Source: Rheinheimera lutimaris (GTDB taxonomy: Bacteria; Pseudomonadota; Gammaproteobacteria; Enterobacterales; Alteromonadaceae). From it: a stretch of DNA of 64,000 nt. The translations under genes and the position numbers were made by a program. The DNA is taken from positions 27,534 through 91,533 of the forward strand of contig NZ_JABSOD010000013.1 in the NCBI RefSeq assembly GCF_013283795.1. Reading direction: 5' to 3'. How positions within the stretch are numbered: position 1 is the first letter of the stretch; each line of letters starts with the position of its first letter. The notes under the pieces are model-generated. The model was not told the DNA's origin. It searched no databases and worked only from the letters and a program-made list of their open reading frames with translations. Positions 60,965-64,000 of this stretch are shown here, one piece after another.

Positions 60965-61537
60965 GTGTTGCAAACCAGTCAGTTATTAATTCAGTTAATG
61001 TTGTATGTGTTTCTGCCACTGTGGGGCATTGCCGGTTTCGTTGACTGGTGCTGTCACCGCGCCACCAAAATTGAACATACTTCAGGCTTAAAAGAATCGC
61101 TTATTCATTCGTTAATGGGCCTGCAAATGGCGCTACCGATTTTGCTCTGCCTGCTGTTTAAGGTAAATGTGCTGATAATGCTGATTTGCATTGCCGCCTG
61201 GCTGGCGCACGAAGCCGTAGCGCATTACGACGTACATTACGCCGCACCCAAGCGCCATATCAGCTTGTGGGAAATGCATGCACATAATTATTTAGCTACC
61301 TTGCCACTTTATATGTTGCTGCTGATAGTGGTGATTAACTATCCGGTGTTTATTAAACTCATCAGCTTTAACTGGCAGGGCGAATTTTATTTCCAGCGCA
61401 TGCCGTACGCCCATGGCGGCGATGCTTACCTGCCGTACTATCTGAGCTTTATGGCGGTGGTGTGCGTGCTGCCTTATATGGAAGAAAACCTGCGCTGTTT
61501 AAGGACGGCACTGCAGCAGCGCAAGGTGAGCGCATGA
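60965..61537 (+). CDS. Small histidine-rich membrane protein, first gene of the ketosynthase operon
   Basis: 190 residues. Four to five membrane helices alternate with conserved polar patches: DWCCHRATKIEHTSGLKES near 27-45, WLAHEAVAHYDVHYA near 79-93, then EMHAHNYLATLPLY. It resembles a group of short conserved proteins often mislabelled diguanylate cyclase; it has no GGDEF domain. Grouped histidines recall membrane di-iron hydroxylases, but the classic HX3H/HX2HH boxes are not present. The start is GTG with AGGAG five bases upstream. The ketosynthase gene overlaps its stop by ATGA. Confidence 0.72.
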   Translation: MLQTSQLLIQLMLYVFLPLWGIAGFVDWCCHRATKIEHTSGLKESLIHSLMGLQMALPILLCLLFKVNVLIMLICIAAWLAHEAVAHYDVHYAAPKRHISLWEMHAHNYLATLPLYMLLLIVVINYPVFIKLISFNWQGEFYFQRMPYAHGGDAYLPYYLSFMAVVCVLPYMEENLRCLRTALQQRKVSA

Positions 61538-62640
61538 GTGTGTATATCAACAGCACAGGCCACTTTTTACCCGGCCCACCCGTTAGCAATGACGAAATGG
61601 AACCGCTGCTGGGTTTAGTGCATGGCAAAGCCAGCCGGTTAAAGCGGCGCATTTTGCAATCTAACGGCATTCAAACCCGGCATTACGCTATTGATGCTGA
61701 GCATAACACCACTATTTCTAATGCCGGTATGGCAGCTAAAGCAGCGGAGCACTGCTTAACAGGCAGCTTTTTAGGCAAACGGCAGATAAAAATGCTTAGC
61801 GCCGCTACCAGCCAGGGCGATATAGTGCTGCCGGGCTTTGGCTCTATGCTGCAGGCTGAGCTGGGGTTAAGTGATATAGAGTTGCACAGCAGCCACGGTA
61901 TTTGCTCCGGCAGTATGATGGCGCTAAAAGCCGCCTTTACCAACCTTAAAGCCGGCGAGCAACCCAATGCACTGGTAGTGGCCAGCGAGCTTACTTCGCG
62001 CTTATTTAAAGCCAGCCGTTATGAAGCCGCCGGCAGCACGCTGGATTTTAACGCCGAGTTTCTGCGCTGGATGTTATCTGACGGCGCCGGTGCGCTGCTG
62101 TTGGAAAACCAGCCGCGTGGCCAGTGTTTCCGCATTGACTGGATCCGCAGTTTCTCTCATGCCGATGCCTACCCGGTATGCATGAGCGTGGGTTACCCAA
62201 CCGACAGCGATCACAGCAAAAGCTGGCAGGATTACGCCACCTATGCCCAGGCCGAAGCGGCCGGTGCACTGCTGATCCGCCAGGATGTGCGCCTGTTGGA
62301 AAATATCGTCAAGCTGGGCGTCGATGGTTATCTGCGCTTAATCGCTGAAGGCCGCATTCAACCGGACAATATTGACCATGTATTGTGCCATTATTCATCG
62401 CATTATTTTCGCGGCAAAATCTTCGATATGCTGCAGCGCGCCGGGGTTGGCATAGCCGAACATAAGTGGTATTCCAACCTGTACAGCCGTGGCAATACCG
62501 GTTGCGCCTCAATTTTTATTATGCTGGACGAGTTTCGCCGCACGCAACACTATCAAACCGGCGATACCATTATTTGTATGGTGCCGGAAAGCGGCCGCTT
62601 TAATAATGCCTATATGCAACTGACCGTAGTAGAGGCCTGA
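61534..62640 (+). CDS. StlD/DarB-type beta-ketosynthase (KAS III-like)
   Basis: 368 residues from ATG 61534, overlapping the previous stop; the longer in-frame start is inside that gene. A thiolase fold. The N-terminal FLPGPPVSNDEMEPLLG and SRLKRRILQSNGIQTRHYAID are characteristic of StlD/DarB ketosynthases, which make dialkylresorcinols and cyclohexanediones. The active cysteine is in SSHGICSGSMMALKAAF, and later histidine/asparagine motifs (HVLCHYSSHYF, WYSNLYSRGNTGCAS) complete the triad. It probably condenses fatty-acyl chains or a polyketide intermediate. Confidence 0.85.
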   Translation: MSVYINSTGHFLPGPPVSNDEMEPLLGLVHGKASRLKRRILQSNGIQTRHYAIDAEHNTTISNAGMAAKAAEHCLTGSFLGKRQIKMLSAATSQGDIVLPGFGSMLQAELGLSDIELHSSHGICSGSMMALKAAFTNLKAGEQPNALVVASELTSRLFKASRYEAAGSTLDFNAEFLRWMLSDGAGALLLENQPRGQCFRIDWIRSFSHADAYPVCMSVGYPTDSDHSKSWQDYATYAQAEAAGALLIRQDVRLLENIVKLGVDGYLRLIAEGRIQPDNIDHVLCHYSSHYFRGKIFDMLQRAGVGIAEHKWYSNLYSRGNTGCASIFIMLDEFRRTQHYQTGDTIICMVPESGRFNNAYMQLTVVEA

Positions 62641-63327
62641 ATGACAGAACACGTATTAAGCCCGCAGGGCCAGCAATGTTTACAAGCCTTAATGCGGGTG
62701 TGGTTTGAATTTGAGCGCCAGCTGGGCCGTGTGCCGCTGTTGCAACGGCTGGAGCGCGGCCAGTTTAGCAAAGCCGACTATTGCCAACTGCTGCTGAATT
62801 GGCGCCAGCAGGTAATAGAGGGCTCGCGCTGGATCAGCCGCTGCGCCTCAAGCTTTGAGCGCGATTACAGCGATGTGCGCTCAACTATTATCGGCCACGC
62901 CCGCGAAGAGCACCGCGACTATGAAATGTTAGAGCGCGATTATGTTGCCGCCGGTGGCAACTTAAGCGACATTCAAAACGCGCCGCGCAATATCGGCACC
63001 GAAGCGCTGCATGGCTTTTTAATGTACCGCGCCGGCCAACCCAATCCTGTCGATTTAATCGGCGCCATGTGGATTATTGAAGGCCTGGGCCAGAAAATGG
63101 CCAACGATTGGGCCACACAAATCGACAAGGTTACCGGCGGCGATGGCGGCTACACCCGCTTTATGCGCTACCACGGTGCCAATGACGATAACCATATGCA
63201 AAAGCTGTATCAGTTGATAGACCGTTTATGTCAACACCCGGCGCAACTGACTGCCATAGTGCGCACCGCCCGCGTTACCGCACGGCTGTACTGCCTGCAA
63301 CTGGAAGAGGTTGAGCATGACTATTAA
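62641..63327 (+). CDS. Haem-oxygenase-fold iron-containing redox enzyme (putative di-iron oxidase)
   Basis: 228 residues, all-helical. Candidate iron ligands are in GHAREEHRDYEMLERDY near 80-97 and in MWIIEGLGQKMANDW near 143-157, with a late H and D in HGANDDNHMQ. This fits the TenA/PqqC-like haem-oxygenase-fold group of di-iron enzymes that oxidise acyl chains or amines. It begins directly after the ketosynthase stop. In similar clusters such an enzyme tailors the polyketide; here the reaction is unknown. Confidence 0.75.
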   Translation: MTEHVLSPQGQQCLQALMRVWFEFERQLGRVPLLQRLERGQFSKADYCQLLLNWRQQVIEGSRWISRCASSFERDYSDVRSTIIGHAREEHRDYEMLERDYVAAGGNLSDIQNAPRNIGTEALHGFLMYRAGQPNPVDLIGAMWIIEGLGQKMANDWATQIDKVTGGDGGYTRFMRYHGANDDNHMQKLYQLIDRLCQHPAQLTAIVRTARVTARLYCLQLEEVEHDY

Positions 63328-64000
63328 AACAGGTAACGGCCCAAGCGCCTACTTAAAGGCCATTGCTAACGATAACTCGCTGCCAATCGAACAAGCGGCG
63401 CTGGATCTATGGTTAAAAGATTTACAAAACCCGCTGCGCTGGGGCGTGCGGCCGCTGTTACAGTTTATCTTTGCCATTTTGCTGCATCTTACCTGGCTGT
63501 TTAAGCGCCTGCCGTTGCCGCAATTCAGTGCGCATAACAGCCTGCAAAAACTGATTTGCTGGTTTTGCACCCATTTTGTTAGCAAAGAGGCCAATTTACT
63601 GATTTTGCGCCACTATGCTACCGAATCTAATGTACTGAACTTTTTGGCCGCCAATAGCCCAAACAGCGGTTTTAAACCGGTGCAGCTTTACCCTAAATGC
63701 ATTGCCGATATGCAACACGCCAGCTTTGTTGAGCATGATCAAGAACTGTTTCGCTTATTTGCGGAGCTGGGCAGCTGGCATCACCCGAAGCAGCCGTTAA
63801 CGCCACAGCAACTTAACTGGCAGCACTGGCAAAGTGTTGATATGGCACAGTTTGAATTTACTGAAAAACGTACGCAATGGCTCGATTTTGAAAGCGCGCA
63901 TGCCTTGTTTATGTGTTTATTTTGCTTATTGCTTACCCGCGAAGAATACCGCGATGCCATTAACGGCTTTAACCTTGATCAGTCCATCGCCATTCGCATT
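63317..64000 (+). CDS. Unrecognised protein, cut by the window end
   Basis: Partial: 228 codons are seen from ATG 63317 and the frame is still open at 64000. It overlaps the preceding gene by 11 bases, so it belongs to the same operon. One strongly hydrophobic segment (about 42-60) is followed by a polar helical domain containing SKEANLLILRHYATESNVL and other conserved-looking His/Glu patches. It resembles DUF6999-type proteins that accompany StlD/DarB ketosynthases; this assignment is from memory of gene neighbourhoods and is uncertain. Confidence 0.6.
   Translation, partial: MTIKTGNGPSAYLKAIANDNSLPIEQAALDLWLKDLQNPLRWGVRPLLQFIFAILLHLTWLFKRLPLPQFSAHNSLQKLICWFCTHFVSKEANLLILRHYATESNVLNFLAANSPNSGFKPVQLYPKCIADMQHASFVEHDQELFRLFAELGSWHHPKQPLTPQQLNWQHWQSVDMAQFEFTEKRTQWLDFESAHALFMCLFCLLLTREEYRDAINGFNLDQSIAIRI

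Follow-up and report, generated by a model that had tools for sequence, protein, structure and literature searches.

A conserved ketosynthase, putative dimetal oxidase and DUF6999 cassette in Rheinheimera lutimaris and other bacteria, and a possible route to a resorcinol-type lipid

What does a StlD/DarB-like ketosynthase (KS) make when it is encoded next to a haem-oxygenase-fold protein, a putative dimetal oxidase (HDO)? The question is raised by the right-hand end of a 64,000-nucleotide stretch of the Rheinheimera lutimaris genome (contig NZ_JABSOD010000013.1, positions 27,534 to 91,533), the whole of which is called the window here. The genome comprises 4.08 Mb in 51 contigs, and the 2,003 bases that follow the window up to the contig end were also read. 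The original prediction, made from the sequence alone, described four overlapping or abutting genes at this place, and all four are present at positions 60965-64171, each on the forward strand. The first (60965..61537, GTG start) encodes a histidine-rich multi-pass membrane protein of 190 amino acids (aa), designated memb. Its stop shares 4 bases with the start of the KS gene (61534..62640; 368 aa), for which we preferred the conserved ATG at 61534, which fits the family alignment, to the longer GTG start at 61462 in the list of open reading frames (ORFs). The HDO gene (62641..63327; 228 aa, ATG start) abuts the KS gene and shares 17 bases with the fourth gene, whose product had been described as an unknown protein cut by the window. 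This gene runs beyond the window end at 64000 (63311..64171) and encodes a complete protein of 286 aa that matches DUF6999 (PF22523). The start codons of all four genes agree with the family alignments.

An HDO scan of genome contigs confirmed 99 loci, 80 of which were kept, and the gene order KS-HDO-DUF6999 (the cassette) recurs in them across 16 named genera. Later counts use loci L002-L082 or L002-L090, the latter located via HDO or DUF6999. KS and HDO adjoin in all 89 loci of the larger set and DUF6999 is next in 88; the exception, L050, ends inside HDO at a contig end. Within L002-L082, KS and HDO are adjacent in 81/81 loci and are followed by DUF6999 in 80/81. Since HDO had selected the loci, a reverse search by DUF6999 alone was carried out in four phylum or class samples. 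Positive genomes numbered 9 of 398 in the source phylum, 4 of 149 in Acidobacteriota (the phylum of L068), 6 of 240 in Alphaproteobacteria (the class of L071) and 1 of 199 in Bacillota (the phylum of L069); the samples may overlap in genomes, and their 20 matches differ in coordinates. Every full-length DUF6999 gene (19/19) was preceded directly by KS and then HDO, as were 15/15 once the window and three centres chosen for carrying the cassette had been set aside. L094, from Acidobacteriota, holds a DUF6999 remnant of ~40 residues with no KS or HDO nearby. Intact DUF6999 is confined to the cassette as far as sampled, and it is highly probable that KS, HDO and DUF6999 form one conserved biosynthetic unit. 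The comparison across genomes confirms that the observation behind the original prediction is real, and makes it stronger than first claimed: the order is conserved, and the combination is sometimes a gene fusion.

KS and HDO occupy a single open frame in 18 of the 89 loci, with 72-162 bases separating the matched parts. Twelve of the 15 loci L068-L082 (Paenibacillus/Bacillus and Acidobacteriota) and six gammaproteobacterial loci (L083-L088) make up this group, and L113 is a further case of one frame holding both KS and HDO. Their fusion in one frame is strong evidence that the two proteins work on one substrate, and we infer that they act on the same chain. The fusion also bears on the notion that HDO, or the whole cassette, serves in stress protection by limiting reactive oxygen species, as does DtpC of Acinetobacter. 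According to the available portion of PMC13232832, DtpC is an HDO-domain protein that matters for oxidative stress, but it is co-transcribed with catalase, whereas the HDO described here is fused to a KS with an intact active site; we consider a stress role very improbable.

The description of the KS as StlD/DarB-like is borne out by its scores, which reach 375.8 bits against NF005293 (StlD/DarB) compared with 79-91 bits against FabH/KAS III models (78.9 bits where the cut-off is 292.1). The former value lies below the NF005293 cut-off of 450, as does the 338.4 bits against NF053539 (DarB) below its cut-off of 550, and three other cassette KSs likewise fall under the DarB/StlD cut-offs. The profile of the cassette KS family aligns over its full length to StlD (5gk0), its best solved relative, with 371 bits. 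Conserved residues include the triad C124, H286 and N321, together with the StlD/DarB-type N315, E352, S353 and R355, which set the family apart from FabH. F102 is the sole position that is 90% conserved in both groups and differs between them, being His in DarB/StlD. Head-to-head coupling of two acyl chains is the reaction of OleA; if the cassette KS worked in this way and formed a beta-keto acid, HDO as an oxidative decarboxylase would yield an unsaturated long-chain ketone or hydrocarbon. Decarboxylation of fatty acids by HDOs is known from the accessible text of a review (PMC13108848), and UndA is among the fold matches of the cassette HDO, but the KS aligns to StlD over its full length and keeps the StlD/DarB-specific residues, so that this alternative appears unlikely.

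The KS was further placed in a tree of 49 sequences (10 DarB/StlD rows, 9 FabH rows and 30 cassette KSs). DarB/StlD formed one clade (99/100) and FabH another (100/100), and all 30 cassette KSs fell outside both. Given the low FabH scores and the separate branch, the KS does not group with FabH, and the identification of the KS as FabH was rejected. A tree in which the cassette KSs were forced to be monophyletic was 5.0 log units better than the free-search tree (approximately unbiased test, p-AU 0.74). When the KSs of the gammaproteobacterial form that we call type I (66 loci, L002-L067) were forced into one clade with DarB/StlD, the tree was 16.5 log units worse (p-AU 0.069) and rejection at 5% was not reached. 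A KS search of 185 genomes of the class separated the two kinds: nine DarB-like KSs scored 543-621 bits, three scored 313-413 bits and the rest at most 61 bits. The three are those of L111, the window and L113, all with HDO and DUF6999 beside them, and the 61-bit match is a remnant (L114) in which the C-terminal end of a KS, 17 residues of HDO and a broken DUF6999 keep the cassette order. HDO or DUF6999 was found beside none of the nine DarB-like KSs (0/9) within 1.5-kb flanks.

The nine DarB-like KSs instead share a conserved neighbour, an open frame of 308-414 aa that lies on the other strand in one case. The profile of this neighbour carries the label DarA by its position beside DarB, DarG and DarH, two rows having no Pfam or NCBIfam name; DarG and DarH are the names of further neighbours at the DarB locus L107. 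As a positive control, the profile matched 9/9 DarB genomes, 3 of them outside the profile, and it matched 0/3 cassette genomes (G000, which is the source genome, G1093 and G1037); a single-sequence DarA search was also empty. The remark that an aromatase is not seen here thus holds for the 51 contigs of the genome, in which no DarA-type gene was found. Downstream, the 2 kb to the contig end hold no genes that would round off a cluster for dialkylresorcinols, flexirubins or aryl polyenes, and a flexirubin/aryl-polyene cluster was rejected; no other stilbene-pathway genes were seen beside the cassette, in the window or in these 2 kb. The two outcomes that would have refuted the original prediction, such a downstream cluster and a KS grouping with FabH, did not occur, and its interpretation is supported. 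An ordinary dialkylresorcinol/flexirubin pathway could still have its remaining genes elsewhere in the genome, and the resemblance of the KS to DarB, together with the p-AU of the joint type I and DarB/StlD clade, speaks for it. Against it stand the KS scores under both family cut-offs, the position outside the DarB/StlD clade, the lack of a DarA-type gene in the genome and the DarB genes that have neither HDO nor DUF6999 beside them. A plain DarAB pathway was rejected, and we give scant credence to one dispersed over the genome. The DarA profile result firmed one premise of the reaction proposed below, and left the odds for the unit and for the reaction unchanged.

Pfam and NCBIfam contain no match for HDO. 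The haem-oxygenase fold named in the original prediction was recovered by a profile search, which matched 3dde at E 3e-10, and by an AlphaFold model (predicted local distance difference test, pLDDT, 92), which gave template modelling (TM) scores of 0.84 to 3dde, 0.82 to CADD and 0.75 to UndA; identity to these three proteins is 10-17%. Eight residues (H86, E90, H91, D93, E147, H178, D182 and H185) are invariant in 40 aligned rows. H178-x3-D182-x2-H185 and E147 align with 3dde, and an earlier helix offers H86/E90/H91/D93. As the available text of PMC13108848 puts it, the ligand set of HDOs is usually 3 His/3 carboxylate, and more than 10,000 HDOs have been counted with about a dozen functionally validated. 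Judged from the alignment, the number of invariant residues in the cassette HDO would suit a dimetal site, with caution on D93.

We propose that the cassette specifies a compact pathway that depends on O2 and leads to a lipid or polyketide, probably an aromatic or other ring-bearing lipid. The KS would take two fatty-acyl thioesters from primary metabolism, one alpha,beta-unsaturated and the other beta-ketoacyl, and would form a 4-carboxy-2,5-dialkylcyclohexane-1,3-dione, or its thioester, by ring chemistry of the DarB/StlD type. Ring formation by DarB and StlD consists of Michael and Claisen steps. The products of DarB are 4-carboxy-2,5-dialkylcyclohexane-1,3-diones, and that of StlD is an isopropyl-styryl relative (PMC5515871, in the text available). 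In the accessible part of PMC3949708, DarA is listed as 'DAR-aromatase', DarB as 'DAR-cyclase' and darC as an acyl carrier protein (ACP) gene, and Chitinophaga darA and darB expressed in a heterologous host gave a dialkylresorcinol (PMC3992019, likewise in the part available). UndA binds the carboxylate of a fatty acid on Fe1, with the C3-H near the cluster, and its products are a 1-alkene and CO2 (PMC13108848). Since the carboxy-cyclohexanedione, like a fatty acid, has a hydrogen beta to the carboxylate, a UndA-like reaction is conceivable on the ring acid. HDO would then activate O2 at its dimetal site, remove the hydrogen beta to the ring carboxylate and release CO2; the resulting C4=C5 double bond would give a cyclohexene-dione that tautomerises to a 2,5-dialkylresorcinol, with HDO standing in for the aromatase DarA. 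This single step would explain why HDO stands where DarA is missing and why HDO is tied to the KS. By this analogy with UndA, we assign a probability of about 0.35 to the reading that HDO oxidatively decarboxylates the carboxy-cyclohexanedione made by the KS to a dialkylresorcinol, in place of DarA. A membrane enzyme (memb in type I; in type II, described below, a desaturase, alone or together with a hydroxylase) would modify the alkyl tail or the ring, and DUF6999 would carry out one further step.

Several points weigh against this reaction. HDO is structurally closer to 3dde, which has no assigned function, and to CADD than to UndA, and TenA proteins and true haem oxygenases fit the HDO model at TM 0.66-0.77, about as well as UndA does, so that the fold by itself is evidence for neither the dimetal site nor the reaction. 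The invariant D93 aligns with the His of the Glu-x2-His motif of 3dde, so that the metal may be bound by a set of ligands other than the customary three His and three carboxylates. For UndA itself, both C3-H abstraction and electron transfer from the carboxylate have been considered, as described in the text of PMC13108848 at hand. Placed outside the DarB/StlD clade, the KS may have a different product, and the ring acid could decarboxylate unaided, leaving HDO another role. The proposed reaction needs neither DUF6999 nor a membrane enzyme. No ACP or thioesterase conserved with the unit was seen among the neighbours, which were annotated for selected loci. With respect to the outcome, the original prediction had suggested a different lipid or polyketide product; HDO in the place of DarA could be a new way to a known type of product, a dialkylresorcinol.

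The part of DUF6999 within the window alone scores 252.3 bits against PF22523, with a cut-off of 27. Its model is all-helical (pLDDT 85), and a Foldseek search of the PDB yielded no solved counterpart of the fold (best E 1.5). Nine residues (R100, H101, H142, D143, D192, D223, R260, H264 and E269) are invariant in 39 aligned rows, and these polar residues look catalytic or metal-binding. An HD-domain-like metal site, suggested by the H...HD...D residues, was considered and rejected, as no Pfam or fold match backs the idea. At L093 (positions 1504-2292 of this Acidobacteriota locus) a DUF6999 protein distant from the other types scores 226 bits, and the HDO of that locus shares 56% identity with one from Paenibacillus; this DUF6999 is perhaps a third subtype.

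Membrane partners accompany the cassette in gammaproteobacteria. In type I, memb lies upstream in 65 of the 66 loci, with another ORF between memb and the cassette in L063; L065, the one locus where memb was not seen, has just 395 bases before the KS. Memb was seen beside the cassette only in this form. Among 31 congeneric genomes, memb and DUF6999 matched the identical 22, and a class-wide memb search of 369 genomes gave three positives: the window, L134, with KS and HDO behind memb, and a distant relative at 52 bits. The last (L135:1461-1985) keeps most of the His/Glu/Asp pattern, has no cassette beside it and is flanked by frames that by eye appear dehydrogenase-like and acyl-CoA-dehydrogenase-like and look unrelated to the cassette; there may be a wider, nameless membrane family around memb. 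The residues invariant in 29 aligned memb rows (E44, H48, H82, H87, D89, E103, H105 and H107) suggest a putative membrane metal enzyme. No Pfam family matched when 29 members were scanned, only stray hits of E at least 0.065 being obtained (FA_hydroxylase at 0.59 in one member), and a profile match to 9j3n (E 0.00016) was regarded as chance, covering a 63-position stretch of a carrier. The second gammaproteobacterial group (type II, with the fused frame) has a fatty-acid desaturase (PF00487) where type I has memb, ahead of KS-HDO, in 5 of 6 loci by Pfam, and in the sixth, L084, the same protein is present upstream by eye; L083 has a fatty-acid hydroxylase in addition. A desaturase in this place fits a lipid substrate. 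A profile comparison detected no relationship between memb and the type II desaturases (probability 0.2%). No upstream gene is shared by the scanned alphaproteobacterial and Bacillota cassettes; a response regulator is upstream in 2/2 Alphaproteobacteria, and a ribosomal RNA methyltransferase and a major facilitator superfamily (MFS) transporter in one Paenibacillus each.

These partners bear on another account, in which the KS forms the cyclohexanedione and HDO oxidises it elsewhere, by ring hydroxylation, quinone formation or desaturation of the alkyl chain, so that the product is an oxidised lipid and not a plain dialkylresorcinol, and DUF6999 completes aromatisation or ring opening. HDO chemistry is varied (PMC13108848, as far as its text was available), DUF6999 is constant in the unit and, with its invariant His and Asp, probably does chemistry too, and a second, membrane-bound and probably oxidative enzyme is usual in gammaproteobacteria. 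We rate this account as possible but well short of even odds. Returning to the decarboxylation by HDO, its widest form can be put forward only tentatively: a phylum-spanning pathway in which a DarB-like KS, fused to HDO in several groups, would supply a carboxy-cyclohexanedione that the dimetal oxidase decarboxylates to a resorcinol-type lipid, with DUF6999 as a new enzyme family, perhaps of a new helical fold, confined to the pathway.

The cassette occurs in Rheinheimera, Halomonas, Shewanella, Colwellia, Vibrio rumoiensis and Paenibacillus, among others; the closest named HDO relatives are from Rheinheimera, the top four being 93-96% identical. Caulobacter vibrioides was the sole positive for DUF6999 among 14 well-known control genomes, and could be a convenient host for work in the laboratory. 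A scan of 72,556 plasmid records gave one match (L132), an 801-kb secondary replicon of Pseudoalteromonas sp. THAF3 that carries the cassette. In its public annotation the three products appear as 'beta-ketoacyl-ACP synthase III', 'iron-containing redox enzyme family protein' and 'hypothetical protein', names that obscure the cassette. Some relatives carry an interrupted copy of one cassette gene (HDO in L017, L035 and L067; DUF6999 in L043 and L045), and with the remnants L094 and L114 these cases seem to reflect decay of the cassette in places, or assembly errors.

To the right of the unit, the DUF6999 stop is overlapped by a 291-aa ORF (64168-65043 in window numbering; L002:3702-4577) that neither Pfam nor NCBIfam matches, and the opposite strand carries a 260-aa ORF within the 2,003 bases beyond the window. 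Of the 81 loci L002-L082, just 13 have the 291-aa ORF, 3 of them with an intervening gene, and it was therefore left out of the unit. Those of the 13 loci that have a genus name are Rheinheimera, and the ORF may be a recent addition; by eye, an 'AHSLG' motif resembling that of hydrolases suggests that it is perhaps a hydrolase.

How does the cassette compare with known systems? In the literature searched, outside which most subscription journals lie, we found no published description of it and no paper naming DUF6999; in the review PMC13108848 the words 'ketosynthase' and 'fused' occur 0 times. Its novelty would rise if a new reaction or a new DUF6999 fold were proven, and since it is compact (three genes, or two if fused), expression of two or three genes would suffice for a search for the product. 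The DarAB dialkylresorcinol/flexirubin system (DarB KS, DarA aromatase and DarC ACP) shares with the cassette the KS superfamily branch and the catalytic and family-specific residues, but the cassette KS branches apart from the DarB/StlD clade and scores under the NCBIfam cut-offs, HDO and DUF6999 are present rather than DarA, and no ACP was seen in the unit. StlD, from the isopropylstilbene pathway of Photorhabdus, is the best solved full-length relative (371 bits), yet in the tree it falls with DarB, apart from the cassette KSs. Among published combinations, the closest is that of DarA and DarB with the CylC halogenase in cyanobacteria (PMC8406957): bartoloside-like clusters with CylC likewise pair a dialkylresorcinol-forming KS with a dimetal enzyme, but there the partners are DarA, DarB and a dimetal-carboxylate halogenase, and HDO and DUF6999 are not named in the available part of that source. 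With UndA, CADD, SznF, BesC and MboA the cassette HDO shares the HDO fold, as the TM scores to UndA and CADD indicate, and it differs from the known HDOs in its low identity, in a possible His-to-Asp ligand change and in its partnership or fusion with a KS. The cassette HDO thus comes with a strong clue to its substrate, being joined, covalently in several groups, to the KS that would make it.

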